Source: Verrucomicrobiia bacterium
GTDB lineage: Bacteria; Verrucomicrobiota; Verrucomicrobiia; Verrucomicrobiales; DEV007
Assembly: GCA_030427505.1 (NCBI GenBank)
Contig: JAUICH010000016.1
Span: 1 to 64,000, forward strand
DNA length: 64,000 bases
Direction: 5' to 3'
The translations under genes and the position numbers were made by a program. Below, piece after piece: positions 17,227 through 34,606 of this stretch; position 1 is the stretch's first letter; every line of letters begins with the position of its first letter. Below the pieces are notes generated by a model that worked only from the letters and a program-made list of their open reading frames with translations, was not told where the DNA came from and searched no databases.

Positions 17227-17278
17227 GCCGTTTTCTCACGGCTCTCTTCCGCTCCTTTCCTTGGTTTTAGCCGGTGTG

Positions 17279-17294: not shown

Positions 17295-17362
17295 ACGCCG
17301 TATCTTTATCTTGGTTCGGAGATACTCCTTGTGAGAGGCGACCCTATTTCACTTCATCATTA

Positions 17363-18937: not shown

Positions 18938-18962
18938 ATCCCGCCCGATCAGATTGCGGAAT

Positions 18963-18996
18963 GCCCGCCCCCAGTTCCTTGGGGGCGGGCTTTTTT
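18963..18996 (+). terminator. Rho-independent terminator
   Basis: GCCCGCCCCC (18963-18972) and GGGGGCGGGC (18981-18990) form a perfect 10-bp stem with an eight-base loop, followed by TTTTTT. It closes the beta-propeller gene. Confidence 0.92.
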
Positions 18997-19011
18997 GTGA
19001 GTTATATGCAA

Positions 19012-19039
19012 TTGACAGAATATTCAAAATAGAGAATAA
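19012..19039 (+). promoter_or_regulatory. Promoter and possible ArsR operator
   Basis: TTGACA (19012-19017) and GAATAA (19034-19039) are 16 bp apart. TATTC (19021-19025) and GAATA (19034-19038) form an inverted repeat overlapping the -10, where an autoregulating ArsR repressor would bind. The arsR start codon is at 19047, so the leader is very short. Confidence 0.65.
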
Positions 19040-19046
19040 AACAGCC

Positions 19047-19442
19047 ATGGATTGCGTGGCGGTTTACAAGTGCCTGTGCGATTCCGTCAGGCTTCGCATC
19101 CTCAATCTCCTTAGCCGGGGGCCACTCTGTGTGTGCCACGTTCAACAAATCCTGGACGAACCGCAGCCCAAGATTTCCAAGCAGTTAGCCTTCATGAAAC
19201 GGAACGGACTCATCGAGTCCACCCGCCACATGAACTGGACGATTTACCGGATTCCGGAACAGCCAAATCCCTTGCTGGCGGAAAACTTGAAGTGTCTCCA
19301 AGAACTGGCTTTCCAAGACCGGGTCTATAAGAAAGACTTGAAGCGCTTCGAAAAGACGGACACCGCCGCCGCTTGTATTCCCGCGGTTCCCCAGCCGAGA
19401 TCAACGTCTTCCAACTCCTCTGGTAGTGCTTGTTCTTGTTAG
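19047..19442 (+). CDS. arsR: ArsR-family arsenite-responsive repressor
   Basis: 131 residues from the ATG at 19047 (MDCVAVYKCLCDSVRLRILN). It is a winged-helix protein of the ArsR/SmtB type: LLSRGPLCVCHVQQILDEPQ carries the LCVC arsenite-binding motif, followed by the recognition helix (QPKISKQLAFMKRNGLIEST). The C-terminus is Ser-rich and ends SACSC, giving a possible extra metal thiolate site. It likely represses the arsR-arsC-aquaporin operon until arsenite binds. The inverted repeat over its own promoter supports autoregulation. Gene order and 30-bp spacing to arsC indicate an operon. Confidence 0.9.
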   Translation: MDCVAVYKCLCDSVRLRILNLLSRGPLCVCHVQQILDEPQPKISKQLAFMKRNGLIESTRHMNWTIYRIPEQPNPLLAENLKCLQELAFQDRVYKKDLKRFEKTDTAAACIPAVPQPRSTSSNSSGSACSC

Positions 19443-19472
19443 CCGGGAAACGCCATCCAGATTCGACCCCTC

Positions 19473-19985
19473 ATGAGCGATACCCACCGGCCATACAAAA
19501 TTCTCTTTCTCTGCACGGGGAACTCCGCCCGCAGCATTATGGGGGAGTACCTCATCCGCCTTGTTGCCCCCGGCAGGTTCGAGTCCTACAGCGGGGGAGC
19601 AGCCCCCAAGGGAGCCGTCCATCCCACGACCATCCGCGTGCTGGACGAAGTCCATCGGCTGGATCTGTCGGATGCCCGCAGCAAGTCTTGGGAAGAGTTC
19701 AAAGATGTCGAGTTCGACTTCGTCATTACCGTTTGCGATAACGCCCGGGAAACCTGCCCAGTTTGGCCGGGGCAACCGATTATTGCGCATTGGGGTTCTG
19801 AAGATCCCGCCGCGGCGGAAGGAACCGGGGAGAAGGTGTACGAGGTCTTCAAGCGCGTTTCTTTCCAGATCCGGCGCCGCCTGGAGCTGTTCACCTCGCT
19901 GCCGCTTGAAAAGTTGGACAAGCTTCGCCTTGAGCAATTGACCAAGGACATTGGAACCTCGAAAGAGACCACCGCTGGCGCATGA
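19473..19985 (+). CDS. arsC: Arsenate reductase, low-molecular-weight phosphatase type
   Basis: 170 residues. The phosphatase-like loop CTGNSARS starts at Cys14, and TVCDNARETCP provides two more Cys with the C-x6-C spacing of thioredoxin-coupled ArsC; HWGSEDPAA carries the general-acid Asp. It reduces arsenate to arsenite in the cytoplasm. About 30 C-terminal residues extend beyond the usual 130-140. The stop overlaps the next start by four bases (ATGA), so translation is coupled to the aquaglyceroporin gene. Arsenate enters through phosphate transporters, so placement amid the pst and porin genes makes sense. Confidence 0.92.
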   Translation: MSDTHRPYKILFLCTGNSARSIMGEYLIRLVAPGRFESYSGGAAPKGAVHPTTIRVLDEVHRLDLSDARSKSWEEFKDVEFDFVITVCDNARETCPVWPGQPIIAHWGSEDPAAAEGTGEKVYEVFKRVSFQIRRRLELFTSLPLEKLDKLRLEQLTKDIGTSKETTAGA

Positions 19986-20773
19986 GACTGCCCCGTTGGT
20001 TCTACTCAGAGTTGTTGGGGACCTTCCTGCTCGTCTTTTTCGGCTGCGGCAGTGTGGCCGTGGCCGTGACGATGGGAAGCCTGGTGGGCGTGTTTCAGGT
20101 GGCCATCGTGTGGGGACTGGGGCTGTCGGTCGCTATTTTCCTAACCGCCCGGCACAGCGGCGCGCATCTGAATCCAGCCATTACCCTGGCCTTTGCGGTC
20201 TGGACGGACTTTCCCATGCGCCGGGTGGCGGGCTACGTGGCGGCCCAGTTTCTGGGCGCGTTCCTCGCGGCGCTGGCCGTTTACCTGGTCTTTGGGGGGG
20301 CGATTACCGCTTTCGAAAGCGCTCATGGCATTCAGCGCGGAGCCTTGGGCAGCGAGGCCAGCGCCATGATCTTTGGCGAGTACTTTCCGAACCCCGGCGG
20401 CACCGCCCTGAGCGAGAAAAGCCGGGTGATGGTTTCCATGCCACGGGCGTTCTTCGCGGAAGCATTGGGGACCGCGTTGCTGGCCCTGGCCATCTTTGGC
20501 TACATTGCCCGGCAGAATGACGCCGGACCTTCGCGGGGCACGCCCTTGGCCATTGGGTTGACTTTGACGGCCCTGATCTGCCTGTTTGGTCCCGTCACCA
20601 TGGCGGGGTTCAATCCCGCGCGGGACTTGGCGCCGCGTTTTTTTTCCATGCTCATGGGGTGGGGGACCCAGGCCTTTACCGTGAATGGCACCGGCTGGCT
20701 GACGGTCTACATCCTGGCGCCCTGCGTGGGAGCGCTGGCCGGTGGCTATGCCGGGAAACGGCTCTTTGAGTAG
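19982..20773 (+). CDS. Aquaglyceroporin, likely arsenite channel (AqpS-like)
   Basis: 263 residues, six membrane segments plus two half-helices with the NPA boxes HLNPAITLA and GFNPARDLAPR, the latter Asp marking a glycerol-type (GlpF) pore. In the ars context such channels (AqpS of Sinorhizobium) let arsenite produced by ArsC leave down its gradient, replacing an ArsB or Acr3 pump. No arsB or acr3 gene is present here, which supports that reading. Overlaps arsC by four bases. A 40-residue loop between helices 3 and 4 (FESAHGIQRGALGSEASAMI) is longer than usual. Confidence 0.88.
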   Translation: MRLPRWFYSELLGTFLLVFFGCGSVAVAVTMGSLVGVFQVAIVWGLGLSVAIFLTARHSGAHLNPAITLAFAVWTDFPMRRVAGYVAAQFLGAFLAALAVYLVFGGAITAFESAHGIQRGALGSEASAMIFGEYFPNPGGTALSEKSRVMVSMPRAFFAEALGTALLALAIFGYIARQNDAGPSRGTPLAIGLTLTALICLFGPVTMAGFNPARDLAPRFFSMLMGWGTQAFTVNGTGWLTVYILAPCVGALAGGYAGKRLFE

Positions 20774-20788: not shown

Positions 20789-22519
20789 TTACCGGAAGAT
20801 CGCGTCGATCCCCATGGCGCTTTTCCGGGCGAATTTGGGAATCATCTTTGGCCGCGTTTTCTTCAGGAACCAGTAGCCAAAGGCCAGCAGGTGGATGCCG
20901 AGGATGCGGTCGATCACCCGGTAGCCGCGATGTTCGCGCACTAGCACGTTAAAGAGCCACATGGCGTAGCGGGGACTGAAGTGGAAGGGCTGGAAGTCCA
21001 GCTTGATGGCGTAGCGCATCCGTTCCTTCTTCGGAAACTTTTTCTTGTAGGCCTTCTTGGCGTCCCGGATCTCTTTCTCCAACTCTTCGTCGGGCTGGGT
21101 CAGGAAATAGGTTCTCGCCAGGAGAAGAATCCTGAAGGTCTCGTACATGAAATCGATGTCTTCCACCGGCAGTCCGCACCGTTCGGCCAGGTGTTTCATC
21201 CGTTCGATGTTCTCCAGGGCCGCCTGCCCCGCCAACAGGCACTCTTCAGGATCCACCACGAACTTGTGGAACACCCGGCGCAGGGAGTGGCTGATGAAAA
21301 TGTTGTGCCAATAGACCGCGATCAGAGGCGGAATCCGGACCCGGCGGAAATACAGGTCGTGCCGGGCAAACTCCGGGGTGTAGAGCAGCTCTTTGACGAC
21401 CTCGTCAGACAACCGCAGGAGTTCCAGCCACGCGGAGGGGTCGTTACATCCCGGATATTGGCGGATGGCTTCCTCCACCGAAAGGTTTTCCCGGAACACT
21501 TTAAGAGTCACGAAGGTATTGATCTCGGTCCAGATGGCTCCGTCTTCCAGGTAGGCCAGCCGGCGGAAGGGGAGCCAGCCGCCTGTCTGGCACCACACGG
21601 AAATGCCGATCAGGTTCCGCGCGTGCCTCAATTCCCGCGCGAAATGCGCGTAGTCCCAGCCCACAAAGGAAGGGTACTCGCCACAGCCTTCGTATTCCCG
21701 GCGGGTCTGAAGTTCGACTATCTTTGGGACATTGGTCCGGAAGAAGCACTTGTTCAGCGGCAGATAGCGGAAGAAGTCGGACTCCCCATACTTCATGGAG
21801 AGCACGAATGCCGGGCTGGAAATGTCTTCCACGGTGCGGGTCAGAGTATCCGGCCGCCAGATCAGGTCGCCAATGCGGTGGGCGCCGACTGTCCAGGTGC
21901 GGAAAACGCAGAGCCGCTCGTGCTTTTCGAAGACCGGGAGCAGCTCTTTGAGGAAGCGATTGAGCATTTTGGCGCTCTTCAGGTGCAACTCGCTACGGAA
22001 AGAGCCTTTGACGTCAATGCCGTCGCTCTCGCCGATTCGCAGAATCAATCCGGTAATTTCGGGAAAATCACGGAAGAACCGGTCGAGCAGTTCCTGGAGA
22101 AACACCACCGAGTGGCGGGGGCTGGAGCCGAGCCGTTCCTTCAGCGCCGGAGTAAAGGTCATGACATCCATCGTGAGGTAGATGTCCAGGCCGTGCCGGC
22201 GGATGATCTTGAAGATCTCCGCGAACTCTTCCCGGAATGCGTCAATCTGTTCGGCGACTTCCGGTTCGTACCATTCGTGTCTGGCCAGGTGGGACACGTC
22301 ATCCAGGCTGACGGCGTTGAAACCGACCGCGGCGATTTCGGAGCAAAACCGCTCCATGTCTTCCCGGATGCGGTCGAATTGCGCTCTCCGCTGGGGACCG
22401 GGAGTGGACAGATGTTCCCAGGGGATCTTTGACCAGTTGATGCGCGTGCGGTCGTAGCCCCGGAAGAAGGGGCCGATGGCGTCGATCAGGAAAATTTGCC
22501 TTTCGGAAGCGGGGAGCAT
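20789..22519 (-). CDS. Large hypothetical protein with a TIM-barrel glycosidase-like look
   Basis: 576 residues, no signal peptide. Sequence order suggests an (alpha/beta)8 glycoside-hydrolase fold: FLIDAIGPFFRGYDRTRINW, AAVGFNAVSLDDVSHLARHE, GLDIYLTMDVMTFTPALKER, ITGLILRIGESDGIDVKGSF (a candidate acidic active-site Glu), LCVFRTWTVGAH, then CGEYPSFVGWDYAHFARELR. It resembles GH67-like barrels by eye, without a confident assignment. The C-terminal 200 residues are helical and basic (KKAYKKKFPKKERMRYAIKL). Convergent with the aquaporin gene (15 bp apart) and divergent from pstS; no Pho-box-like element faces it. Confidence 0.7.
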   Translation of the reverse strand: MLPASERQIFLIDAIGPFFRGYDRTRINWSKIPWEHLSTPGPQRRAQFDRIREDMERFCSEIAAVGFNAVSLDDVSHLARHEWYEPEVAEQIDAFREEFAEIFKIIRRHGLDIYLTMDVMTFTPALKERLGSSPRHSVVFLQELLDRFFRDFPEITGLILRIGESDGIDVKGSFRSELHLKSAKMLNRFLKELLPVFEKHERLCVFRTWTVGAHRIGDLIWRPDTLTRTVEDISSPAFVLSMKYGESDFFRYLPLNKCFFRTNVPKIVELQTRREYEGCGEYPSFVGWDYAHFARELRHARNLIGISVWCQTGGWLPFRRLAYLEDGAIWTEINTFVTLKVFRENLSVEEAIRQYPGCNDPSAWLELLRLSDEVVKELLYTPEFARHDLYFRRVRIPPLIAVYWHNIFISHSLRRVFHKFVVDPEECLLAGQAALENIERMKHLAERCGLPVEDIDFMYETFRILLLARTYFLTQPDEELEKEIRDAKKAYKKKFPKKERMRYAIKLDFQPFHFSPRYAMWLFNVLVREHRGYRVIDRILGIHLLAFGYWFLKKTRPKMIPKFARKSAMGIDAIFR

Positions 22520-22578
22520 GAAGGTTTGGGGAGAGGTTTTTCTTATCGCTTAAGAATCAATGAGTTATAGAACTAAGT

Positions 22579-22594
22579 GTGACGATTTCGTTAC
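22579..22594 (+). promoter_or_regulatory. Pho-box-like element upstream of pstS
   Basis: GTGACGATTTCGTTAC, GTGAC and GTTAC 11 bp apart. Differs at one base from the minus-strand copy upstream of phoB. 100 bp before the pstS start codon. Confidence 0.75.
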
Positions 22595-22694
22595 GGGAAA
22601 GGATTTTGAAGGTTTTGGGCCTGTGTCAGATTCAAGCCGTTCTGGGACACCAGACAAACCACACAACCCAAATAGTACTGACTCAAATCTACCC

Positions 22695-23507
22695 ATGAAA
22701 AAAGCAACCGCTATTCTAGCTGCTCTTGCCCTTAGTTCGGGCTTTGCTGTAGCCGCTGACGAGATCGTGATCAAGGGTTCTGACACGCTGGGCGCCAAAA
22801 TGGTTCCTCAGCTGAAGGACGCATACGTTGCCGCTGGTAACGACGTTTCCATGGATATCGCCGCTGAAGGCTCCTCCACCGCTTTCACTGCTCTGCTTGA
22901 CGGCAGCGCTGAAATCGGCATGTCGAGCCGTGACGTGAAGAGCGAAGAAGTGGACAAGTTCACTGCCGCTGGCATGAAGCTGAAAGAGTGGACCGCCGCT
23001 TACGATATGATTGGCATCATCGTGAACGAAAACAACCCTCTGGAAGACATCACTCTGGAGCAGGTTGAAGGCATCTTCACCGGCGACATCACCGACTGGA
23101 GCCAAGTGGGCGGTCAGCCCGGCGAAATCTCCGCCTACACCCGGAACACTTCTTCCGGCACCTACAAGAGCTTCCAGGAAATGGCGATGAACAAGCGTGA
23201 CTACGGTTCGAACACTCAGAAGATGGCCGGTAACGAGCAGATCGCTGAAGAAGTTTCCAAGAACCCGAACGGCATCGGTTACGTTGGTCTCGCCTACACC
23301 ACCAACCCGGGCATCAAAACCCTCAAGGTTGACGGTGTCGAGCTGAAGCCGAAAAACGCCAAGAAATACCCGATCTCCCGCTCCCTCTACTACTTCACGA
23401 TCGAAGGCAAGCTGTCCGACGCTTCCGAGAAGTTCCTGAAGTGGGCGACCAAGGACAAAGCCGCGATGAAGATCGTCGACGAAGTGGGTTTCATTCCTGC
23501 TAAATAA
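22695..23507 (+). CDS. pstS: Phosphate ABC transporter substrate-binding protein PstS
   Basis: 270 residues from the ATG at 22695, which begins a signal peptide (MKKATAILAALALSSGFAVA); the frame is open for 45 codons upstream through the Pho-box region, which is not protein-like. There is no lipobox, so the protein should be free in the periplasm. Phosphate-binding features of the PstS family are present: KGSDTLGAKMVPQLKDAY, AAEGSSTAFTALLDGSAEIG, MSSRDVKSEE, and TRNTSSGTYKSFQEMAM. It has its own terminator (23543-23575), so it is a separate unit from pstCAB, allowing higher binding-protein levels. Confidence 0.94.
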   Translation: MKKATAILAALALSSGFAVAADEIVIKGSDTLGAKMVPQLKDAYVAAGNDVSMDIAAEGSSTAFTALLDGSAEIGMSSRDVKSEEVDKFTAAGMKLKEWTAAYDMIGIIVNENNPLEDITLEQVEGIFTGDITDWSQVGGQPGEISAYTRNTSSGTYKSFQEMAMNKRDYGSNTQKMAGNEQIAEEVSKNPNGIGYVGLAYTTNPGIKTLKVDGVELKPKNAKKYPISRSLYYFTIEGKLSDASEKFLKWATKDKAAMKIVDEVGFIPAK

Positions 23508-23542
23508 GTCCTTGCTGAACCTCTAAGTTCATCAGTGCAGAG

Positions 23543-23575
23543 AAGCGTCCGAAGTAATCCTTCGGGCGCTTTTCG
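23543..23575 (+). terminator. Rho-independent terminator of pstS
   Basis: AAGCGTCCGAAG (23543-23554) pairs with CTTCGGGCGCTT (23560-23571) with one G-T wobble, followed by TTTT. Confidence 0.85.
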
Positions 23576-23618
23576 TTGAGATAGAGGGGGTAACGAAGAT
23601 AGTTCGAGAGGGCGATAC

Positions 23619-23634
23619 GTTACGGAATCGTTGC
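23619..23634 (+). promoter_or_regulatory. Pho-box-like element upstream of pstC
   Basis: GTTACGGAATCGTTGC, GTTAC and GTTGC 11 bp apart, 97 bp before the pstC start. It lies after the pstS terminator, giving pstCAB its own promoter. Confidence 0.65.
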
Positions 23635-23715
23635 CGTTGAATTCACGCAATTTGCTCATTACTGCGATAGGAGACGGCAGAACAAACGACAGACACTCGA
23701 AGATTTCACCGGACC

Positions 23716-25815
23716 ATGGCTACGACAACGGGCAACGACACCTCTAAAGTTCCGAACGCATTCAAGCGGAAGGGAATCCGCGTTTTTGGCCTCGGAAAAG
23801 CGGAGTTTATTAAGTACTTTTTCGGCGGGAATGCCAGCCTCGCCATTGTCGTGCTGATCCTGATCTGCGTGTTCCTCATGATCGAGGCGGCGGGATTCCT
23901 TCCTGGTAACCGCCGCGGGCTGGAAGATTACCGGAAGTCCGGCCAGGAATTTGTCGATTTCATCCGCGACGAAATCAATCAGCACACCGCCACCACCACC
24001 AAGCTGTCCATCGCCTACTATGCGGAAGTAAACGAAACTTCCCGGCACGAAGACCAGTTGGTGGGCGCCTTCATTCAGGTGCGCAACGCGGTTCAAAATG
24101 ATTCCGGTAAGGTTTACGAAGGCTTGGAACAGGTCATCGACCGTGTGGACGAGTTGAAGGACGACCTCGAGGAGGCCCGTGAAGAGGCGGCTGAAGCCGC
24201 GGAGGCCGCCAGCGCCAATGCTCCGGCGGATCCGAACGCGGTCGCGGCAAACTCACCAGCGGCGCCGGAAAGCGATGAGATCAAGGAGCTCGAACGGAAG
24301 ATCGCGGCCGCGGAAGCCTCGGTGAAGGAGGAGCGGAAGCATTACCTGACGGTCGCGGAAGCCTTATTGAAGGAGGAAAGCACTTGGGACCTCGAGCAGG
24401 CGGGTCTGCATCTCGGTGAAGAGGAGAAAGGGAAAATTTCCGAGGCGGTCCTTTTCTATCTGCCGGATACCGAGGGAGATCATCCCTACATTTCGGAGTT
24501 GAAGAAGATTTCATCCGACAAAAAGAAAGTGGCCGCCGAGGAGCATGCGGACTTCAAGGCGGTGGTGGACGAGTTCCGGGCCGCGGTACAGCCGATGAGA
24601 GACTTTGTGAGTCCCTTGAAGGACAAGGCCGAAGAAAACCGGGCCTTGGCGACCTCCTTTCTGACGGCGGGAGCCCGCAGAGAGGCCCTGCTGGCCAGTG
24701 CCAAGAGGGTGGAAGACGAAGCGAAAAAGCAGGACATCCTGGCCCAGGCGGAAGAGGTGAACATTAAAGAGCCTCCGTATGACAAGCTGACCGAAATTTT
24801 CTACGCCAGCATTCCGCAATACCACGAACTCTCTCCGGCGTTCCTCGCGGCCTCGGAGGCGGCCATGGCGAAGGTGCCGGAGAAAGTGAGTACGGACTCA
24901 GCCCGGGAAAACCTGGGAATGGCCAAGTCTGAGTTCAAAGACCTGAAAAAGATCGGGAAGAAGAACGATAAACGGGTGGATAACTGGCGTCACGACCGTC
25001 CGGTTTCCATGATTGGGGCGTTCTTCTCTTTCCTGACGGGGAAAGACTGGGTGACGAACAGCTCGTGGCATGACTCTTACGGTTTGCTTCCGCTCTTTAC
25101 TGGTTCGCTCCTGATCTCCCTGATCGCGTTGATTGTGGCGATTCCGTTCGCGGTGGGCGCCGCGGTTTACGTGAACCAGGTGGCGCCCTTCAAAGAGCAA
25201 AGCTTTATCAAGCCGACTATCGAATTCATCGAGGCTATTCCCTCTATTGTGTTGGGCTTCTTCGGGATTCTGGTGCTCGGCACGGCTTTGCGCGAGTTGA
25301 GCCAGGTGCCTTACCTGTCCTGGGTGCCCGGTTTTCCGATGTCAGAGCGTTTGAACATCCTCACCGCGGGCCTCCTACTGGCCTTCATGGCGGTCCCGAC
25401 GATCTTCACCCTGGCGGAAGATGCTCTGAACAACGTGCCAGCCACCTTTACGGAGAATTCCCTCGCTCTTGGGGCCAGTAAGATTCAAACGGTTTTCCGG
25501 GTGGTGGTTCCCACGGCGGTCTCCGGGATCATGGCGGCGGTGCTGCTCGGCTTCGGCCGCGTCATCGGGGAGACGATGGTGGTGCTGCTGGTCGCGGGTA
25601 ACAAGATTCAGATTCCGGACTTTAGTAAGGGGATCGGCGTGGTGACCGAGCCTGCTCACACCATGACGGGGATCATTGCCCAAGAGCTGGGCGAAGTCAG
25701 TCAGGGAACCATCCACTGGCAGGCGCTTTTCATGGTGGGCATGGTGCTCTTCGCCATCTCCCTCATCATCAACTTCAGCGCCCAACAGGTGCTGCGCCGG
25801 TTCCAGAAGATCTGA
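23716..25815 (+). CDS. pstC: Phosphate ABC transporter permease PstC with a large periplasmic insertion
   Basis: 699 residues, more than twice the usual 300. Membrane helix 1 lies at about 36-55 (LAIVVLILICVFLMIEAAGF). Residues 56-450 form a hydrophilic, helical, Ala/Glu-rich region with coiled-coil stretches (VDELKDDLEEAREEAAEAAE; ELERKIAAAEASVKEERKHY). The standard permease core follows from about 453 (GLLPLFTGSLLISLIALIVA) with the EAA-type cytoplasmic loop (NSLALGASKIQTVFRVVVPT). The insertion sits between helices 1 and 2, so it should project into the periplasm, where it might contact PstS or span towards the porin. No frameshift is needed to read it. First gene of pstCAB. Confidence 0.9.
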   Translation: MATTTGNDTSKVPNAFKRKGIRVFGLGKAEFIKYFFGGNASLAIVVLILICVFLMIEAAGFLPGNRRGLEDYRKSGQEFVDFIRDEINQHTATTTKLSIAYYAEVNETSRHEDQLVGAFIQVRNAVQNDSGKVYEGLEQVIDRVDELKDDLEEAREEAAEAAEAASANAPADPNAVAANSPAAPESDEIKELERKIAAAEASVKEERKHYLTVAEALLKEESTWDLEQAGLHLGEEEKGKISEAVLFYLPDTEGDHPYISELKKISSDKKKVAAEEHADFKAVVDEFRAAVQPMRDFVSPLKDKAEENRALATSFLTAGARREALLASAKRVEDEAKKQDILAQAEEVNIKEPPYDKLTEIFYASIPQYHELSPAFLAASEAAMAKVPEKVSTDSARENLGMAKSEFKDLKKIGKKNDKRVDNWRHDRPVSMIGAFFSFLTGKDWVTNSSWHDSYGLLPLFTGSLLISLIALIVAIPFAVGAAVYVNQVAPFKEQSFIKPTIEFIEAIPSIVLGFFGILVLGTALRELSQVPYLSWVPGFPMSERLNILTAGLLLAFMAVPTIFTLAEDALNNVPATFTENSLALGASKIQTVFRVVVPTAVSGIMAAVLLGFGRVIGETMVVLLVAGNKIQIPDFSKGIGVVTEPAHTMTGIIAQELGEVSQGTIHWQALFMVGMVLFAISLIINFSAQQVLRRFQKI

Positions 25816-25873
25816 GGGGTTTTTGTCATCCCTTCCCTGTTTTCAAACTTTTTGACCCTTTCCTGTAAAAGCC

Positions 25874-27013
25874 ATGCACGACGTCGCTACCGACACCGCC
25901 ATCAAGAACGCCTTCGCCACGGTCTCCTTCAAGCAGAAGCGGAAGGATGCCGCGGTCCGCTGGACCATGCGGATTGCCACCTACTTCATCCTGGCGTGTG
26001 CCTTCTTTGTATTTATTGACATCATCAGCAAGGGAGCGCCCGTCATTCTAGACCGGGGCTTGGACTTCTTTACGAAGAATCCCGAAACGCTGATGGTTTT
26101 CGAAACCGCTGACGGCACCGAGCACCAGTTGGGGTATTCCGATTTCGTGGTCTGGAAGGACAACAACCCCGATCAGGAGATCGTGGAGCAGCATGGCTAC
26201 ACCTATTGCGGTGGCGGTATTCTGGGCCCGGTGGTGGGCACGGCCTTCCTGACGATTATCTGTATTGTTGTGGCGCTGTTCATTGGGTTGACCTCCGCGA
26301 TTTACCTCAATGAGTACAGTGGAAAGGGTAAGTTCATGGACATGATCCGCCTGGCCATTCTGAACCTGGCCGGGGTTCCCTCCATTGTCTTTGGTCTGTT
26401 TGGCTTGGGCCTGTTCTGTTTGGCGGCGCCGGTCATTACCAATGAGATCAAAGAAGGCGCCTGGCACATTCCGCTCCTGAGTGGGTATGCCATCAGTTTC
26501 CAGGGGTGGGGCACTTCCATGATTGCGGGTGGCTTCACGCTGGCGGTCATGATTCTGCCGGTCATCATCACGGCCTGTGAAGAGTCCCTGAAAGCCATTC
26601 CCATGGGCTTCCGCGAAGCCTCCCTGGCCCTGGGCGCCACCAAGTGGCAGACCATCCGTAAAGCGGTGCTGCCCTACGCTTTCCCGGGTATGTTGACCGC
26701 TTCCATTCTTGGAATTACCCGGGTCGCGGGCGAAACCGCCCCGATCATGTTCACCGCCGCCATGGCGAGTAAAGCAACCTTGCCTTGGCAAGGATTAGAA
26801 GGCAATGTGTTCGAGAGGTTCTTTGGCTTTCTCTCACAGTCGGTTCAGGCGTTGCCTTATCATATTTACACGGTTGCCGCCCGAATTCCCCAGTCCGAGT
26901 ACACCAAGCCCATGCAGTATGGTTCGGTCTTTGTCTTCATGGTGATAGTTATGGCGTTCGCCGCGATGTCGATCTTCATGCGCATTCACTACCGGAAGAA
27001 ATTGAAGTGGTAA
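25874..27013 (+). CDS. pstA: Phosphate ABC transporter permease PstA
   Basis: 379 residues, about 80 longer than typical. Helix 1 at about 33-53 is followed by a 60-residue periplasmic loop (DRGLDFFTKNPETLMVFETA through GYTYCGGGILG) before the usual core with the EAA loop (ASLALGATKWQTIRKAVLPY). It pairs with PstC to form the phosphate channel in the inner membrane. 58 bp after pstC and 52 bp before pstB, same operon. The extra loop parallels the large insertion in PstC at the same topological place. Confidence 0.94.
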   Translation: MHDVATDTAIKNAFATVSFKQKRKDAAVRWTMRIATYFILACAFFVFIDIISKGAPVILDRGLDFFTKNPETLMVFETADGTEHQLGYSDFVVWKDNNPDQEIVEQHGYTYCGGGILGPVVGTAFLTIICIVVALFIGLTSAIYLNEYSGKGKFMDMIRLAILNLAGVPSIVFGLFGLGLFCLAAPVITNEIKEGAWHIPLLSGYAISFQGWGTSMIAGGFTLAVMILPVIITACEESLKAIPMGFREASLALGATKWQTIRKAVLPYAFPGMLTASILGITRVAGETAPIMFTAAMASKATLPWQGLEGNVFERFFGFLSQSVQALPYHIYTVAARIPQSEYTKPMQYGSVFVFMVIVMAFAAMSIFMRIHYRKKLKW

Positions 27014-27065
27014 TCCGCTCCCAGAATCAGAAACTTAAAGAATCAATTTTCAGCAAAAAGTAATC

Positions 27066-27899
27066 ATGAGTGCCATCTCAGCCGGAACCGAAAAGACCGT
27101 CGGCAGCCAGAAGACGGAAAAGCCCGAAGGAGCGAAGAAGAGTCTCGTTATTGAGACCAATGAAGTGAGCTTTGCCTACGACGGGAAGAAAGATGTTTTG
27201 AAGAAGATCTCCATGCAGATCTTCGCCCAAGAGGTGACGGCCTTCATCGGACCCTCCGGTTGCGGTAAATCCACTTTGCTCCGGAATTTCAACCGGATGA
27301 ACGATCTGATCCCGACGGCCAAGATCACGAATGGCCACATCAGCATTCTGGGTTCGGACATTTTCGACCCGATGGTGGACGTGATCGAGCTGCGGAAGAA
27401 AGTGGGAATGGTATTCCAGAAATACAATCCCTTCCCGAAGAGCATCTACGAAAACGTGGCCTATGGCCTGCGCATTGCCGGCGAAAACCGCAAATCCGTC
27501 ATCGACCAGGCTGTTGAAGAGAGCTTGCAGCTTTCGGGTCTCTGGGAAGAGGTGAAAGATCGCCTGGACGCCAGCGGCATGGGGCTGTCCGGTGGCCAGC
27601 AACAGCGTCTTTGCATTGCGCGGACCATCGCGGTGCGGCCTGAAATCATCCTCATGGACGAGCCCTGCTCCGCGCTCGACCCCATTTCGACGGCCAAGGT
27701 GGAAGACCTGATCACCCAACTGAAAGAGAAGTTCACCATCGTCATTGTCACGCACAACATGCAACAGGCGACGCGCGTTTCCGATCGCACGGCCTTCTTC
27801 TACCTGGGCAGCCTGATTGAGATGGATGACACCACGAAGCTGTTCACCAACCCCACTCAGAAAGAGACTGAGGACTACATTAGCGGCCGGTTCGGCTGA
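27066..27899 (+). CDS. pstB: Phosphate ABC transporter ATP-binding protein PstB
   Basis: 277 residues. Walker [11 protein letters not shown]-loop in [20 protein letters not shown], signature [20 protein letters not shown], Walker [14 protein letters not shown] and switch His in VIVTHNMQQ are all present. A 25-residue charged leader precedes the domain ([20 protein letters not shown]). It powers PstCA-mediated uptake, and PstB proteins also relay transport state to PhoR through PhoU. Last gene of the operon; no obvious terminator follows in the 230 bp before the glycosyltransferase. Confidence 0.96.
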
Positions 27900-28059
27900 T
27901 CCTCAGATTCCACGGGAGTGGAAATAAGGGGCTTGCATAAAACTTGCTCCACCGGATTTTTTGGCATACACCCAGTCGCGGGTGTAACATGGGACTGATT
28001 TGGCCCGGCGTGAAGAATCCTTGGAGTAAACCACGCGGTAAAGAGGACCTTTCCATCGT

Positions 28060-28075
28060 GTTACGAAAACGGAAC
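28060..28075 (+). promoter_or_regulatory. Pho-box-like element upstream of the glycosyltransferase/PlcP pair
   Basis: GTTACGAAAACGGAAC, GTTAC and GGAAC 11 bp apart, 61 bp before the start codon. AATATTAAA near 28093 is a possible -10. Second half-site is imperfect. Confidence 0.5.
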
Positions 28076-28135
28076 AGAATCTCAATTGTGCGAATATTAA
28101 AGCTTTTTTAAGCTTTTAACCGATTTCTGGGAGCT

Positions 28136-29287
28136 ATGAAGATCACGTTTGTCACCGATACCTATGCTCCCCAACCCAATGGCGTAGCCACCACCCTCCA
28201 CCGGCTCGTGACCGGCCTGAGGGGGCTCGATCACCAGGTGGATGTCATCCGGCCCGCGGTTTTGGCCTGTGACGAAGAAGGAATGCGGGTCCCTTCGGTG
28301 GCGCTCCCGGGGTATCCGGAGGTCCGGATTGGCCTTCCCATCCGGCTGGTGCTTCAGGCCCGCTGGTACCGGAACCGTCCAGACGTGATCTACGTGGCCA
28401 CCGAGAGCCCGCTGGGCGCTTCAGCCATTAAGGCGGCGCGCTCCTTGAGAGTCCCGGTGGCTTCCGGATTTCACACCAATTTCCAGCAGTATGTGAGCCA
28501 CTACCAACTCCCCGGGCTGGAGCGTGCCACGCTGTTCTACCTGCGGCACGTCCACAACCGCTCGCAGCGGACCTACGTGCCTTCCTACGACGTCATCGAC
28601 GAACTCGACCGCCAAGGGTTCGAGAATCTGGAGATTTTGCCCAAGGGGGTGGACACCAAGCTCTTCAACCCGAAGAAGAGAGATCTCATTCTGCGCTCGG
28701 AGTGGGGCGCGGGGGACAAGGCCAAGGTGGGCATTTATGTGGGACGCATGGCGGCGGAGAAAAATCTGCACCTCGTCGCCAGGACCTTTTCGGAAATTCA
28801 GCGCCGCCTGCCGGACTTCAAGGCGGTGTTCGTGGGTGACGGGCCGAAGAAAGAAGAACTCCGCCGGCAGTATCCGCAGTTCATTTTTGCTGGCGTTCGC
28901 CAGGGAGAGGACTTGGCCCGCCATTACGCGTCCGCTGACGTGTTCGTTTTCGCCAGCATGACGGAGACCTTTGGCAATGTCGTGCTGGAAGCCATGGCTA
29001 GCGGCCTGGTGACGGTGGGGTATGACTACGCGGCTCCCCGGCAACACATTTTGGACGGGGTTACCGGATTCAAGGCGCCTTTTGGAGACGAGGACGCTTT
29101 CGTCCAAGCCGCCATCAGAGCCGTCACGGCCTCCAATCTCCCCGAGATTCGTGAAGCCTCCCGCCGCGCGGCGAAGAAAGTGCGGTGGAAAAAGGTCGTC
29201 CGGCGGTTCGAGAAGAGCCTTTCCGAAATGATCGACAAGTACGACACCGAAAGAAACAGGACGCTACCCGAAGCGGAAATCGCATGA
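28136..29287 (+). CDS. GT4 glycosyltransferase, probable glycolipid synthase (Agt/SqdX-like)
   Basis: 383 residues, cytoplasmic, GT-B fold of family GT4. The N-terminus MKITFVTDTYAPQPNGVATT matches lipid glycosyltransferases of the SqdX, MgtA and Agt type; the donor-binding half has LEILPKGVDTKLFNP, GIYVGRMAAEKNLHLVA, VFVGDGPKKEELRR and the E-x7-E motif in TETFGNVVLEAMASG. Its stop overlaps the start of the PlcP-like gene (ATGA), so the two are co-translated. In the known PlcP-Agt pathway, the phospholipase makes diacylglycerol and the glycosyltransferase adds sugar to it, replacing phospholipid when phosphate is scarce. The acceptor here is inferred from that pairing and from the upstream Pho-box-like element. 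Confidence 0.8.
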   Translation: MKITFVTDTYAPQPNGVATTLHRLVTGLRGLDHQVDVIRPAVLACDEEGMRVPSVALPGYPEVRIGLPIRLVLQARWYRNRPDVIYVATESPLGASAIKAARSLRVPVASGFHTNFQQYVSHYQLPGLERATLFYLRHVHNRSQRTYVPSYDVIDELDRQGFENLEILPKGVDTKLFNPKKRDLILRSEWGAGDKAKVGIYVGRMAAEKNLHLVARTFSEIQRRLPDFKAVFVGDGPKKEELRRQYPQFIFAGVRQGEDLARHYASADVFVFASMTETFGNVVLEAMASGLVTVGYDYAAPRQHILDGVTGFKAPFGDEDAFVQAAIRAVTASNLPEIREASRRAAKKVRWKKVVRRFEKSLSEMIDKYDTERNRTLPEAEIA

Positions 29288-30138
29288 AAAAGTCCGAACG
29301 TATCCAGTATAAAACGCTCTTTCTCTCCGACATTCACCTGGGTACGCCTGACTCCAAGGTCGACGAATTGATCGACTTTCTGAAGCTGACGCATTGCAAG
29401 CGTCTGGTGTTGAATGGCGACATTGTCGACGGATGGCAATTGAAGCGGGGAAGCTCCTGGACCGACAAACACACCAAGCTGGTCCGCACGGTCCTGAAGA
29501 AAATGGAGAAGGAGGATGTGGAGGTGATTTACCTTCGCGGGAATCACGATGACATCCTGGAGCGTTTTCTGCCGATCAATTTCGGGAAGCTCATCATCGA
29601 ACAGGAATACGTGCATCAAACCGCTCACGGAGACTACCTTGTCGTACACGGCGATGGTTTTGACGCCGTCACCACGAGCTGCAAGTTCATCGCCGAACTG
29701 GGGTCCGTGGGGTACGAGCTCTTGCTGCGCCTGAACCGGCTCTACAACAAGTGGCGCAACTGGCAAGGCAAGGAGTACTTCTCTCTGAGCAAGGCCGTGA
29801 AGGCCAAAGTGAAGTCCGCCGTCAGCTTTGTGGGCCGGTATGAGGAGCAATTGCAGAATCTGGCCCGGGCGCGGGGCTGCGTGGGTATTATTTGCGGACA
29901 CATTCACAGTCCGGCCGATAAGAAAATCGGAAACATCCACTACCTGAACTCAGGGGACTGGGTGGAATCTCTGACCGCCATCGCAGAGCATCACGACGGC
30001 CGTTTCGAGGTGATTGAGTATACCGAATTCAAGAAACAGTTTCCGTCCGAAACTCCCAAGTCTGACAAGGATGCTTCCGGAGATGGCGGCTCCGCCGTGG
30101 AAGACACGGAAGAGTCCATGGTAGCCGCAATGGCTTGA
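29284..30138 (+). CDS. plcP: PlcP-like metallophosphoesterase (phospholipase C for lipid remodelling)
   Basis: 284 residues from the ATG at 29284; the frame is open upstream inside the previous gene, but this start gives the family N-terminus and a four-base overlap. Calcineurin-type metal motifs are DIHLG, NGDIVDGW, GNHDD, HGDGFD and CGHIHSP. The WQLKRG segment, SLSKAVKAKVKSAVSFVGRY and the NSGDWVESLTAIAEHHDGRF ending match PlcP-type proteins, which are often misannotated as UDP-2,3-diacylglucosamine diphosphatase (LpxH). PlcP removes phospholipid headgroups during phosphate starvation. LpxH remains the main alternative, but the glycosyltransferase partner and Pho context favour PlcP. Confidence 0.75.
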   Translation: MKKSERIQYKTLFLSDIHLGTPDSKVDELIDFLKLTHCKRLVLNGDIVDGWQLKRGSSWTDKHTKLVRTVLKKMEKEDVEVIYLRGNHDDILERFLPINFGKLIIEQEYVHQTAHGDYLVVHGDGFDAVTTSCKFIAELGSVGYELLLRLNRLYNKWRNWQGKEYFSLSKAVKAKVKSAVSFVGRYEEQLQNLARARGCVGIICGHIHSPADKKIGNIHYLNSGDWVESLTAIAEHHDGRFEVIEYTEFKKQFPSETPKSDKDASGDGGSAVEDTEESMVAAMA

Positions 30139-30561
30139 GGACGAGTGCCGTCCGGCGCGTCCCTCCCCTTTGGGAAGCCTTCCTTCGCGTGGAAAGGGGG
30201 AGACTAGGTTGGCCCGAATGGGGGATGGCTAACCTCGGGGGCTTGTGACGAAATGCTTGCAAAACCTCACCTGCGAAGTCCGCGGCTTCGGCTTATGGTT
30301 AGAAAGATTATAGTGAGTAAACCCCTCACGAAGTCTTCACGCCCCCATTCCGCTGAATGAATTCCCCTTTTAATTTTGGAGATCTCCTGTTTATTTCAGG
30401 AGACCTTGATTTCCCCGACCTCTTGCGCCGGAAGGTGGAGAAACCGATGATCGGGCAGATGATTTCGCTTATTCCCTCTGGTCCGGGGAAGGCGGGAGGC
30501 CGTTAGAGACGGCCGGTTTTCCCACGAATTTGCAAGACTCTTCATAACCAGGTATCCCAAA
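30139..30561. other. Intergenic region with a hairpin before phoU
   Basis: No gene seen. Contains the Pho-box-like element at 30325 and a hairpin TCTCCTG (30383-30389)/CAGGAGA (30397-30403) with a seven-base A/T loop and no following T-run, so it is more likely a leader structure than a terminator. Confidence 0.4.
30325..30340 (-). promoter_or_regulatory. Pho-box-like element upstream of phoU
   Basis: Reads GTGAAGACTTCGTGAG on the minus strand: GTGAA and GTGAG 11 bp apart. About 220 bp before the phoU start, further than the other copies, and both half-sites are imperfect. Confidence 0.4.
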
Positions 30562-31278
30562 GTGGTCAGATCCAATAACATTGTGGCAACCCAGACAGCC
30601 CATACGCTGAGCACCTTCAACGTGGCGATGAAGGAGATCAGAAATTCCGTGCTGACCATGGCGAGCATCACTCAGCAAAATATGGAATTTGCCATCCGTG
30701 GTCTGCTGGAACGGAGTCAGGAAGCTTGCAACGAAGCTATTGCGGACGACGACGAAGTGAACAGCTTCGAAAAGGTGGTCGATACCGAGGGCATGCAGAT
30801 CCTGATCCGCTTTAGTCCCGTGGCCGCCGATCTGCGCCACGTTTTGGCGGCAATGAAGATCGCGGGCAACCTCGAACGGATTTCCGACCAGGCCCAGAGT
30901 GTTGCCCGCCGGGCGCGTAAGATTATCAAGCATCCGGAAGTTTCCGAAACGCGCAGCGTGGAGCCGCTTTTCGAGATGGCCATCAATCTCTACAAAGACT
31001 CCATTCGCTGTTATGCCGAAGGAGACGTGGAGCTGGCGCTGTCTCTCTACGAGAGAGATCAGGAGCTGGACAAGGCCCACTCCAAGATGATCAAGGAGTT
31101 AACCAAGACGATGGAGCGGCAGCCGTCCAATCTGAAGACCTACCTTCATCTGATCTTCATTCTGCGGTGCCTGGAACGTATTGGCGATCACGCGGTAAAC
31201 ATTGGTGAGGACGCGGTCTTTGCGGAAAGCGCTGCCGATATCCGGCACGTGGGCGCCCGGGCCTTGACGGACAGTTGA
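30562..31278 (+). CDS. phoU: Phosphate signalling complex protein PhoU
   Basis: 238 residues, all-helical, two PhoU repeats (about 20-105 and 125-215). Metal-binding motifs of the E/DxxxD type are seen in DDDEVNSFEKVVDTEGMQIL and LERDQELDKAHSK-like segment YERDQELDKAHSKM; the conserved RFSPVAADLRHVLAAMKIAG and RCLERIGDHAVNIGEDAVF mark each repeat. PhoU dampens PhoR kinase activity when phosphate is plentiful and restrains Pst uptake. The GTG start at 30562 is the first in frame; GTG at 30583 is an alternative. Between the lipid-remodelling pair and the phoBR operon, which is convergent. Confidence 0.92.
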   Translation: MVRSNNIVATQTAHTLSTFNVAMKEIRNSVLTMASITQQNMEFAIRGLLERSQEACNEAIADDDEVNSFEKVVDTEGMQILIRFSPVAADLRHVLAAMKIAGNLERISDQAQSVARRARKIIKHPEVSETRSVEPLFEMAINLYKDSIRCYAEGDVELALSLYERDQELDKAHSKMIKELTKTMERQPSNLKTYLHLIFILRCLERIGDHAVNIGEDAVFAESAADIRHVGARALTDS

Positions 31279-31354
31279 AGTCCGGGGATCCGGCTTTCTT
31301 AGCCTTGAGAGGCAGAGGTTCCCGGGTTCCCGGATTGCTCTTTCCCGCCGGCTT

Positions 31355-32701
31355 CTAGCTCACCGGGGCGGTGACGGGCGCTTCCGCTTCCGGTCTCGCG
31401 GGAACTTTGATGGAGAAAACGGTTTCGATGCCGGGACGGCTCTTGACCGAGATAGTCCCGCCGTGAGCTTCCACCGCGCGTCTCACGATGGACAGGCCTA
31501 ACCCCGTTCCTTTCACCTGCTGCGTGGAGTGGTGCTTCTCCACCCGGTAAAACCGCTTGAAGATGTGGGGCAACGCCGTGCCTGGAATCCCCACGCCGTT
31601 GTCGAAAACGTCTATGATGAACTGATTCTCCAGGCACTTCAGGCGGATCTTTATCTTCAAGCCTGGGGAGTGATTCTGTTTCAGGGCGTTTTCGACCAGG
31701 TTGAAGAAGACCTGGTCCCAGTAGAAGCGGTCGCCATAAAACGAGCGGTCGCCCTCTGGAAAGTCGAGAATGATTTCCGCCTCTCGCTGCTCGATCAGGG
31801 GGTGAAGATGCTCGGTGATGCTGGCTACGCAGTCCGCGAAATCGAAGTAATCCCGGTTCAGGAGATCCTGGGGACTCTCCAGTTTGGAGATGGTCAGCAT
31901 GTCCTCCACGATGCGGGAAATGCGGTCGCCATGTTTACGCATGGTGTGGATGGCGCGCTTCGCGGCGGCAGAGTCCGTGACGTCCTCTCCGTCCAGCATT
32001 TCGAGGTAGCCATTGATGATGGAGAGCGGGGTCCTCAACTCGTGGGAGGCGTTGGCGATGAAGTCGCGCCGGATCTGCTCGGTCTCCCGCTGGAGCGTGA
32101 TGTCGCGCAGCAGGATCCACGTACCCGGCTCGATGCCGAGGCCGGTCTGAAGCGGCTCCGCTTCCATGAGGTAGGTGTGGTCCTGGCGGTCCAGGCCCCG
32201 GCGGCTCATGTTCAAGGTGTCTTTGTAAAGGGTGCCAGCTTCGGTCGCCTGATTGACGGCATCCACAATGCGGTGGTCCAGGCAGACCTCGATCAGGGGC
32301 CGGCCTTCATGCGGGATATCCGTGGGAAACACGACTTTCGCGGCCTTGTTGGAAAACCGGATCTCCAAGTGCTCGTCCAGAATGAAGATCAGGTCCTCAA
32401 TGTCGTTTAACACCGCTTCCAGGAACCGGCGCTGATTGGCGTCCGCGTTGCTCCTCATGGAGGCCTCGGTCACGAGGTCCAGGATGAGTTCCCCCAAGTC
32501 AGCAAGAGGTTCTGGCTGGGGGATACTGGCCACGTCCCGGAGGGAGGGAGGGGTGTCGCTCTGGAAGAGTTTGATCTGTTGGCCGACCGCCCGGCGCCAC
32601 CGGTAGCAGCGCCACCCCAGCAGCAGGACCGCCAGCGACAGGACAATGAGCAGAAAAGTCTCCAAGTGGGGAAGTCTACGATGCGTGCGTCGTGGAAACA
32701 A
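31355..32701 (-). CDS. phoR: Sensor histidine kinase PhoR
   Basis: 448 residues. One N-terminal membrane helix (about 14-32, TFLLIVLSLAVLLLGW), a PAS domain (about 95-205, DIEDLIFILDEHLEIRFSNK), the HisKA motif FIANASHELRTPLSIINGYL with the phosphorylated His near 220, and an HATPase domain (NALKQN, DNGVGIPGTALPHIFKRFYR, GTGLGLSIVRRAV). Topology with a single helix and cytoplasmic PAS matches PhoR, which reads Pst/PhoU status rather than external phosphate. Overlaps the end of phoB by 26 bp, so the two are one transcript. Confidence 0.92.
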   Translation of the reverse strand: MFPRRTHRRLPHLETFLLIVLSLAVLLLGWRCYRWRRAVGQQIKLFQSDTPPSLRDVASIPQPEPLADLGELILDLVTEASMRSNADANQRRFLEAVLNDIEDLIFILDEHLEIRFSNKAAKVVFPTDIPHEGRPLIEVCLDHRIVDAVNQATEAGTLYKDTLNMSRRGLDRQDHTYLMEAEPLQTGLGIEPGTWILLRDITLQRETEQIRRDFIANASHELRTPLSIINGYLEMLDGEDVTDSAAAKRAIHTMRKHGDRISRIVEDMLTISKLESPQDLLNRDYFDFADCVASITEHLHPLIEQREAEIILDFPEGDRSFYGDRFYWDQVFFNLVENALKQNHSPGLKIKIRLKCLENQFIIDVFDNGVGIPGTALPHIFKRFYRVEKHHSTQQVKGTGLGLSIVRRAVEAHGGTISVKSRPGIETVFSIKVPARPEAEAPVTAPVS

Positions 32702-33365
32702 ACCGGTAACCGACTCCGCGGACGGTTTCGATACGGGAGCCGTTTCCGCCTAGTTTCTCTCTCAGGCGCTTGATGTGGGTGTCCAGCGTCCGGGTTTGAA
32801 TGAGGTCGCTGTAGCCCCAGACTTTTTGCAGCAGTTCCGAGCGCTCCCGGGCCACGCCGGGAGATTCGATCAGGCTGAGGAGCAGTTTAAATTCCGTCGC
32901 CGTCAGGTCCACGGGATCGCCGCTGAGGTAGAATTTCAGGTTGTTCTTGTCCAATCGAAAATCACCGATTTCGACCACGGAGGCACTGGGGCCTTTCTCC
33001 GTGCGGCGCAGAATGGCCTTCACCCGCAGGATCAGTTCCTTGGGGCTGAAAGGTTTCGTGATGTAGTCGTCCGCGCCCAGAGACAGGCCGGTGATGCGTT
33101 CGTCCAGCTTGCCCTTGGCGGTCAGCATCAACACGGGAAGCTCGCTCGTCCGGGTGTCGTTCCGCAGTTCCTTGAAGACCGCGTAGCCGTCCATTTGGGG
33201 CAGCATCAGATCCAGAATGATCAGGGCGGGAGCCGATTTCCGGGCCATCTTGACGGCGGTAATGCCGTCAGGGGCCTCGATAGACTGGAACCCGGCCCGG
33301 TGAAGATTCAGCGCAATGAGTTCGCGGATATCTTCCTCATCATCGACGATCAGGATAGTGGACAT
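32676..33365 (-). CDS. phoB: Phosphate response regulator PhoB
   Basis: 229 residues. The receiver domain (1-120) has the acidic pair DDEED, phospho-acceptor Asp near 54 in ILDLMLPQMDGY, Thr in MLTAKG and Lys in DYITKPFSPKELILRV. The OmpR-type winged helix (about 135-229) includes LTATEFKLLLSLIESPGVAR and VWGYSDLIQTRTLDTHIKRL, with the recognition helix in the latter. It should bind the 11-bp-spaced elements listed here, including one 73 bp upstream of its own start. Confidence 0.94.
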   Translation of the reverse strand: MSTILIVDDEEDIRELIALNLHRAGFQSIEAPDGITAVKMARKSAPALIILDLMLPQMDGYAVFKELRNDTRTSELPVLMLTAKGKLDERITGLSLGADDYITKPFSPKELILRVKAILRRTEKGPSASVVEIGDFRLDKNNLKFYLSGDPVDLTATEFKLLLSLIESPGVARERSELLQKVWGYSDLIQTRTLDTHIKRLREKLGGNGSRIETVRGVGYRFVSTTHAS

Positions 33366-33437
33366 AGGACAGAGAGAAAGAAGGAGAAGGTGGAGACAGA
33401 CGAAACGCTTGAATTTGGGGTCCGAAAGTGGCGTGAT

Positions 33438-33453
33438 GCAACGAAATCGTCAC
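33438..33453 (-). promoter_or_regulatory. Pho-box-like element upstream of phoB
   Basis: On the minus strand GTGACGATTTCGTTGC, identical to the pstS element except for one base. It indicates autoregulation of phoBR and could also serve the divergent lipid-kinase gene at 33656. Confidence 0.75.
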
Positions 33454-33655
33454 CCCCTCCGGACCACGGCTCAATATTCGTCCGCCGGTGGAATTCTGGA
33501 CGAAAAAAAGTGTAAAGAATTGTAAAGCGCGGCCGGCCGGGAAAAGACGAGCGAAACCAATACCCCGGAATAAAGTGGAGAAGTGTCTCAGTAGCTGGGT
33601 CAAATTCGCTGGAAAAGCCCTGAACCGGAGATTATGAAGACAAGGTCTTGAAGCT

Positions 33656-34606
33656 GTGGAAGTACGTCCCCGACCGAAGAAAGTCCATGTGATCATCAAC
33701 CCCGCGACGGCCCGCCGGGTGGCCTTGCTGTCGCTGTTGAACGATCACTTTCGGCCGAAAGGCATCCAGTGGGATGTCTCGGTCACGCACGGGGAGGGGG
33801 ATGGCGTAGAGCTGGCGCAGCGGGCGCGGGAGGAAGGCGCGGATGTCGTGGGCGTCTTCGGGGGAGACGGTTCCGTCATGGAGGTGGCTACCGGTCTGGT
33901 GCACACGGACACGCCACTGCTGATTCTCCCCGGTGGCACGGGAAACGTGGTGGCCATCGAGTTGCAGATGCGAAACGAACTGACGCCGATCGCGCGGGAC
34001 ATCGCCCGGGCGTGCAACCGCGTTTGTGGGGATACCTTCCGCGTGCGGAAGGTGGACGTGGGCAAGATTGCGGAACACTACTTTCTGCTGCGGGCCGGCT
34101 GTGGAATCGAAACCCAGGTCGTCCAAGACGCCACGCGGCAGCTCAAACAACAGTTTGGCAAGTGGGCCTATATGTTCGCCGCTATCCGGCATGTGCAGGA
34201 GCAGCCATCCGCCGACTACGAACTGACCCTGGACGACCGGGATGTTATTCGCGACCGGGGCGTGGCCTGCGTGGTGGCCAATACGGGGGCCGTGGGATTG
34301 GGTACCCTCAGTCTGTCGCCTTCCGTGGACATTGACGACGGGAAGCTGGACGTATTTTTCCTGCGGAAAGCGAATCTGGAAGGGCTGCTTTCCGTGGGCG
34401 CCAAGATGATTGGGCTGGATCGCGACCTGCCGGAAAAAATGGAGCCCTCCGCCTTGAGCGCGACAAAGCTTATCGGTCATTGGCAGGTCAAGAAGATCAA
34501 GATCTCGACCGATCCGGTGCTGGACATTCAGATTGATGGCGACGTCCTCAGCAAGACTCCGCAAACGATTGAAGTGGAGGCCCAGGCGCTGGGCGTGGTG
34601 GTCTGA
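33656..34606 (+). CDS. Diacylglycerol kinase/YegS-family lipid kinase
   Basis: 316 residues, GTG start at 33656. N-terminal HVIINPATARRVALLSLLND is the family opening; nucleotide-binding motifs VFGGDGSVMEVATGL and ILPGGTGNVVAIELQMRNEL follow, then a beta-sandwich C-terminus (KIKISTDPVLDIQIDGDVLS). Such kinases phosphorylate diacylglycerol or related lipids. Divergent from phoB with a shared 290-bp region containing a Pho-box-like element. Together with the PlcP and glycosyltransferase genes this suggests control of the diacylglycerol pool during phosphate stress, though the substrate is not fixed by sequence. Confidence 0.85.
   Translation: MEVRPRPKKVHVIINPATARRVALLSLLNDHFRPKGIQWDVSVTHGEGDGVELAQRAREEGADVVGVFGGDGSVMEVATGLVHTDTPLLILPGGTGNVVAIELQMRNELTPIARDIARACNRVCGDTFRVRKVDVGKIAEHYFLLRAGCGIETQVVQDATRQLKQQFGKWAYMFAAIRHVQEQPSADYELTLDDRDVIRDRGVACVVANTGAVGLGTLSLSPSVDIDDGKLDVFFLRKANLEGLLSVGAKMIGLDRDLPEKMEPSALSATKLIGHWQVKKIKISTDPVLDIQIDGDVLSKTPQTIEVEAQALGVVV

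Follow-up and report, generated by a model that had tools for sequence, protein, structure and literature searches.

The 64,000-nucleotide stretch analysed here (the window; positions 1–64,000 of contig JAUICH010000016.1 from a Verrucomicrobiia bacterium of the order Verrucomicrobiales) contains a phosphate (pho) locus in which genes for a GT4 glycosyltransferase (GT) and a PlcP-type metallophosphoesterase form a pair between the pst transport genes and phoU. The best explanation for this arrangement, and one we hold with considerable confidence, is a PhoB-controlled swap of phospholipid for glycolipid under phosphate starvation. As phosphate fell, PhoR and PhoB would induce the pst genes, the coupled pair and phoU, acting at a Pho box particular to the lineage. 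The phosphoesterase PlcP would cut the phosphate-bearing head group off membrane phospholipid and leave diacylglycerol (DAG), to which the transferase, an Agt2-like enzyme, would add a sugar – the bulk of the membrane would be kept and phosphate freed. When phosphate returned, a lipid kinase encoded beside phoB might turn surplus DAG back into phosphatidic acid. Protein families, gene coupling, the fusions in relatives and the conservation of the site are evident from the sequences; binding by PhoB, the reaction, its sugar, the direction of flux and the part of the kinase in this scheme are predictions. Coordinates of the genes and sites are given in Table 1.

The first-pass annotation of this DNA had described a coupled GT4 transferase and PlcP-like phosphoesterase between pst and phoU, and both the open reading frames (ORFs) and family searches bear this out. 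The two genes overlap at an ATGA, with the PlcP start at the ATG at 29284; a longer ORF from 29185 is merely mechanical. In a set of 57 genomes, PlcP was matched in 35 at E <= 0.001, 32 of them strongly (own genome included). The loci compared were 32 in number, 31 from strong relatives and one (L031) from a named genome, Candidatus Didemnitutus (Opitutaceae, Verrucomicrobiota). In 27 of these 32 loci the gene immediately before PlcP, in the same orientation, encodes a GT homologue; that of L058 has just 31% identity. The loci with no upstream GT homologue are L048, L049, L050, L031 and L052, and the contig of L052 ends there. Five of the 27 encode GT and PlcP in one ORF – four in family f2 (L062, L067, L069 and L070) and one in family f5 (L053). 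PlcP is directly followed by phoU in 13 of the 32 loci, and in six of eight further loci picked from 17 new PlcP genomes; pstB precedes the GT gene in six of the 32, and phoB is divergent from the GT gene in three. Judged by gene order, the pairing is not due to chance and the pair is a unit.

The phosphoesterase matched the calcineurin-like metallophosphoesterase family (PF00149, 51 bits, cutoff 21.5), and is 41% identical to the PlcP of Sinorhizobium meliloti and 44% identical to that of Pseudomonas aeruginosa. The S. meliloti comparator (L036), near an acyl-homoserine-lactone synthase gene, is one that we take from its synteny to be SMc00171. The P. aeruginosa comparator (L037), a PlcP gene followed by its GT gene, was taken as PA3219-PA3218 from the description in part of PMC8528852. 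A 48-row tree placed the window protein and its relatives in the order with both of these PlcP proteins, and split off the five LpxH comparators at 100/99; long branches were flagged among the LpxH rows, which were kept in the tree. All 43 rows on the PlcP side have the motif GNHD. The motif GNRD, a mark of LpxH, is present in four LpxH rows and absent from the fifth, that of Bacteroides. The window protein also has NSGDWVE in the alignment. Were the phosphoesterase instead of the LpxH type, hydrolysing UDP-2,3-diacylglucosamine for lipid A synthesis, the GT would be a lipopolysaccharide transferase and the placement in a pho locus would be incidental. An LpxH-type model is the best NCBIfam match of the protein (48 bits, cutoff 134), and plasmid records that name its relatives mostly use the name of LpxH's reaction. 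However, both LpxH models are far under cutoff (TIGR01854 gives 31.7 bits, cutoff 190.35), and the tree split, GNHD in place of GNRD and the repeated Pho linkage also count against LpxH. The genome itself encodes one PlcP and one LpxI, and LpxI is present in 54 of the 57 genomes, so lipid A could be made without need of the gene at 29284–30138. Model scores, motif, tree and LpxI led us to reject the LpxH identity, which is now scarcely credible. The protein, which the first-pass annotation had allowed might group with true LpxH, does not do so, and by these comparisons it is of the PlcP type.

The transferase was compared with two characterised enzymes, Agt1 and Agt2, and is nearer to Agt2 in sequence. 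Its identity to P. aeruginosa PA0842 (Agt2) is 44% over 387 columns, versus 33% to PA3218 (Agt1), and its motifs ETFGNVVLEA and GFHTNF are identical in PA0842. The gene used as PA0842 (L106) is presumably that gene, since its neighbours are plcR and the gene of a phosphocholine-specific phospholipase C. The GT tree set the Agt1 clade apart at 100/100 with the window GT outside it, and gave no resolved branch uniting the verrucomicrobial GTs with PA0842. The earlier label for the pair, PlcP-Agt, was right in kind, but its transferase is closer to Agt2 than to Agt1, the neighbour of PlcP in P. aeruginosa. By eye, GRMAAEKN and FASMTETFG in the GT are like, and not identical to, the GRVAxEKN and FPSxTDTFG given in part of PMC8231724. 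When expressed in E. coli, PA0842 is reported to yield glucuronosyl-diacylglycerol (GADG) and PA3218 to yield MGDG (PMC8528852, in part). Since a GT4 lipid enzyme can use more than one UDP-sugar, indeed several (PMC8231724, same part), the sugar added here is a guess, glucuronic acid or glucose, donated as the UDP-sugar, being the likeliest. The lipid acted on by the GT might instead be phosphatidylglycerol or a carrier of envelope glycans, with PlcP serving the GT through a different reaction: the best NCBIfam match of the GT is an N-acetylglucosaminyl-phosphatidylglycerol synthase model (156.5 bits, cutoff 480). The second model is an alpha-monoglucosyl-DAG synthase (99.6 bits, cutoff 400), however, and PA0842, to which the GT is more similar than to PA3218, is reported to make a DAG glycolipid. 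DAG is favoured as the acceptor because the GT adjoins, or in some relatives is fused to, the proposed DAG-releasing enzyme, and a different acceptor is very unlikely.

Alignment of the promoters of relatives gave a common 18-bp element, which we read as a lineage-specific candidate Pho box, presumably bound by PhoB. The E. coli Pho box (CTGTCAT-N4-CTGTCAT) had three matches with up to three mismatches in the 64-kb window, versus 3.28 expected, and none in the pho locus; with no enrichment, a box of the E. coli type was rejected. A weight matrix was made from the GT and phoB promoters of 20 relatives, leaving out the window and including no pstS or phoU promoter. The top three matches of this model in the window are before the GT gene, pstS and phoU, and the top scores of 20 simulated 64-kb sequences, used as a control, were 12.5–17.0. 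The site was present in all 14 phoB/kinase intergenic regions (13 new and the window's own), versus 92 of 4000 random segments, and in seven of eight new GT promoters of the family, versus 44 of 2000 random segments, though as close relatives of the modelled promoters these are not independent proof. Thus the Pho-box-like elements that had been proposed before the pair and in the phoB/kinase region exist as a conserved site, weaker in the latter, and not as the E. coli consensus.

A number of observations, beginning with this kinship among promoters, weigh against a PhoB-controlled lipid swap. Even in the window, the GT and phoB hits are not independent because the model was built from orthologous promoters. 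The next matches after the top three (scores 16.6–13.9) lie before the gene for a choice-of-anchor I protein (17049 and 17278), the phoB/kinase region (33437), phnG (14515), a porin O/P gene (15428) and pstC (23618), and while their placement is coherent, each is within the simulated range, the maximum of which is 17.0. Only five of 15 other GT promoters have the site, and none was found in the 232–300 bp before the five fused GT-PlcP genes; pst is missing from the retrieved extent of all five fused loci, and phoU from that of four. Over the whole genome, the pattern with up to three mismatches has 133 matches versus 84 for a reversed control, so most weak matches are due to chance. PlcP itself is patchy – strong in 32 of the 57 genomes, present in 31 of 49 genomes of the family, without a match in two of the six f2 genomes of the 57-genome set, and absent from verrucomicrobial methanotrophs according to part of PMC9239053. 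In the 14 phoB/kinase regions the best site is 58–82 bp from phoB and 108–202 bp from the kinase gene, and a second, weak site nearer the kinase was found in one region only (L189), so the site may serve phoB alone.

The last point concerns the kinase, which contains two domains above cutoff (PF00781, 75.7 bits; PF19279, 56.9 bits), matched BmrU/DgkB-type structures, and is below the cutoff of the subfamily model TIGR00147 (103.7 bits, cutoff 118.65). Gene order confirmed that it is divergent from phoB, and the coordinates first given for the whole module are right. Close orthologues (49–65% identity) were found in 17 same-family relatives within the 57-genome set, where other matches were 24–39% identical, and in 35 of the 49 family genomes. 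Of the 37 genomes that encode the kinase, 23 have its gene divergent from phoB: 21 of the 26 with PlcP and two of the 11 without (Fisher p 0.0006, kinship ignored). An earlier count on 18 genomes gave p 0.003. A genome was considered to be without PlcP if it had no match at E <= 0.001 (57-genome set) or 1e-60 (49 family genomes), and the not-divergent class includes two genomes (G059 and G062) in which the kinase is near a contig end, with a partial phoB beside it in G062. There were three independent pairs among the 18 genomes and five among the 37; about two agree and nearly all others show no difference. These pairs are too few, so relatedness remains a confounder of the link between kinase and PlcP. 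One genome (G076), with the kinase and no PlcP match at E <= 1e-60, has a phoB match containing one in-frame stop (contig C16, 22162–22839).

Whether the kinase belongs to the system is evenly balanced. The pair could make glycolipid while the kinase is a general YegS/DgkB-type enzyme, beside phoB by chance. The genome encodes three DAGK_cat genes, close orthologues of this one are also found in genomes without a PlcP match, and five other families of the order that were sampled have no close orthologue, just matches of 27–39% identity; the position of the shared site nearer phoB and the small number of relatedness-controlled pairs point the same way. Set against these are the skewed counts of phoB-divergent kinases in genomes with PlcP, and the case of Pseudomonas putida BIRD-1, in which DagK appears alongside PlcP in a list of lipid-remodelling proteins that respond to phosphate and is called PHO-dependent in the discussion, yet the passage on proteins lost in a phoBR mutant names PlcP and not DagK (PMC5082522, in part). 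Since that work, in the part concerned, already counts DagK with PlcP in Pho-linked remodelling, a kinase member is not a new idea; the arrangement here, with the kinase gene divergent from phoB, may be new. The kinase as a third member, which the first-pass annotation considered a notable variation, gains from a phoB-divergent position that many family members have and that tends to accompany PlcP, and loses from relatedness, with DagK as a precedent. It is a suggestive but weak link of the proposed lipid swap. A fuller version of that swap seems unlikely: GT and PlcP as one DAG hand-over unit making glucuronosyl-DAG, acting with the phoB-linked kinase and a 576-aa protein encoded beside pstS in a reversible exchange under a Pho box of its own form.

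By its genes, the lipid swap proposed here is of a kind already known, in a group that has been studied less. What sets it apart are the GT partner, the natural fusions, a candidate Pho box of local form and, suggestively, a kinase. The PlcP-Agt system of P. aeruginosa (PA3219-PA3218 and PA0842; PMC8528852, in part) is like it in having an overlapping PlcP/GT pair and proposed Pho-box control. In P. aeruginosa the PlcP gene comes first and its partner is Agt1, with Agt2 encoded elsewhere, beside plcR; here the GT gene comes first, its product is Agt2-like, the pair sits between pst and phoU, and some relatives have it as a fusion. The PlcP of S. meliloti and marine bacteria is of the same family, with Pho regulation and often an adjacent lipid gene; the sections of PMC4796936 consulted name a verrucomicrobial single-cell genome with PlcP, and mention neither linkage to pst-phoU nor a fusion of PlcP with a GT nor a linked kinase. 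A literature search of titles and abstract openings within one library returned no description of a GT-PlcP fusion or of a verrucomicrobial Pho box. Lipid remodelling under phosphate starvation, studied in Proteobacteria and a flavobacterium according to the portions of the literature covered, would be part of the pho locus itself in some members of another order, where PlcP is partnered by an Agt2-like enzyme – a sequence-based case that is testable. The natural fusions offer a way to test direct passage of DAG from phospholipase to transferase, and the candidate Pho box could be used to map the phosphate regulon of the group.

Table 1. Genes and candidate regulatory sites of the pho locus, in window coordinates
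Feature	Position	Strand	Basis and remarks
576-aa protein, no known family	20789–22519	-	divergent from pstS; possible further member
pstS-pstC-pstA-pstB phosphate transport genes	22560–27899	+	
pstS	22560–23507	+	ORF and PBP_like_2 (Pfam); likely start 22695, at MKKATAIL signal peptide
Pho-box-like site between pstS and divergent 576-aa gene	22578..22595	+	score 19.3
pstC	23716–25815	+	ORF and BPD_transp_1 (Pfam)
pstA	25874–27013	+	named by reading; homologues in same order in relatives
pstB	27066–27899	+	named by reading; homologues in same order in relatives
Pho-box-like site before GT-PlcP pair, TGTTACGAAAACGGAACA	28059..28076	+	score 23.4, best in the 64-kb window
GT4 glycosyltransferase	28136–29287	+	Glycos_transf_1 / Glyco_transf_4 (Pfam); nearest Agt2; proposed glycosyl/glucuronosyl-diacylglycerol synthase
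PlcP-type metallophosphoesterase	29284–30138	+	PF00149; proposed intracellular phospholipase C
ATGA stop/start overlap of GT and PlcP genes	29284..29287	+	sequence; genes also overlapping or closely spaced in relatives
Pho-box-like site between PlcP and phoU	30244..30261	+	score 18.5
phoU	30562–31278	+	TIGR02135, 158.7 bits, cutoff 130.25
phoR	31355–32701	-	TIGR02966, 240.6 bits, below equivalog cutoff; overlaps phoB (31355..33365)
phoB	32676–33365	-	TIGR02154, 236.8 bits, below equivalog cutoff
Pho-box-like site between phoB and lipid kinase	33437..33454	-	score 15.9; 72 bp from phoB, ~200 bp from kinase start
DAGK_cat/YegS_C lipid kinase	33656–34606	+	PF00781 and PF19279; divergent from phoB; proposed diacylglycerol recycling kinase

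The gene of the 576-aa protein starts 59 bp from the Pho-box-like site of pstS (22578), and 127 of the 240 genomes covered from the order contain a match to the protein. The gene is directly downstream of PlcP in three loci (L059, L200 and L202) and upstream of it in two (L227 and L236); in L237, from a genome without a PlcP match (G018), it follows a GT gene that is directly upstream. A site was found within 400 bp upstream of the gene in two of 30 loci, plus L045, a count that is a floor because the pattern is so strict that it misses the site in the window; elsewhere the gene is mostly in other settings in which no site was found. Its Pho linkage thus appears patchy. The single sequence had no meaningful match in Pfam, NCBIfam or the PDB, and profiles of 18 rows and of five distant relatives gave no family match. 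The single-sequence fold had a mean pLDDT of 45.0. A GH67 alpha-glucuronidase was an impression by eye alone and is not claimed, as neither single-sequence nor profile searches gave a match.

Upstream of pst, phnG (14589), the porin O/P gene (15515) and the choice-of-anchor I gene (~17363) each follow a Pho-box-like site (region 14515–18937), so the phosphate gene island may extend well upstream of pst. By eye, no phn gene besides phnG was seen among the listed ORFs of at least 150 aa at 12500–20000. Elsewhere in the same genome (contig C30), a Pho-box-like site about 110 bp before the gene for polyphosphate kinase 1 (L208, 4576–4593) fits the set. A polyphosphate kinase gene was also seen by eye near PlcP in the Candidatus Didemnitutus locus (L031, 6502–7569), and one adjoins PlcP on a Mitsuaria plasmid (L039, 6923–8983).

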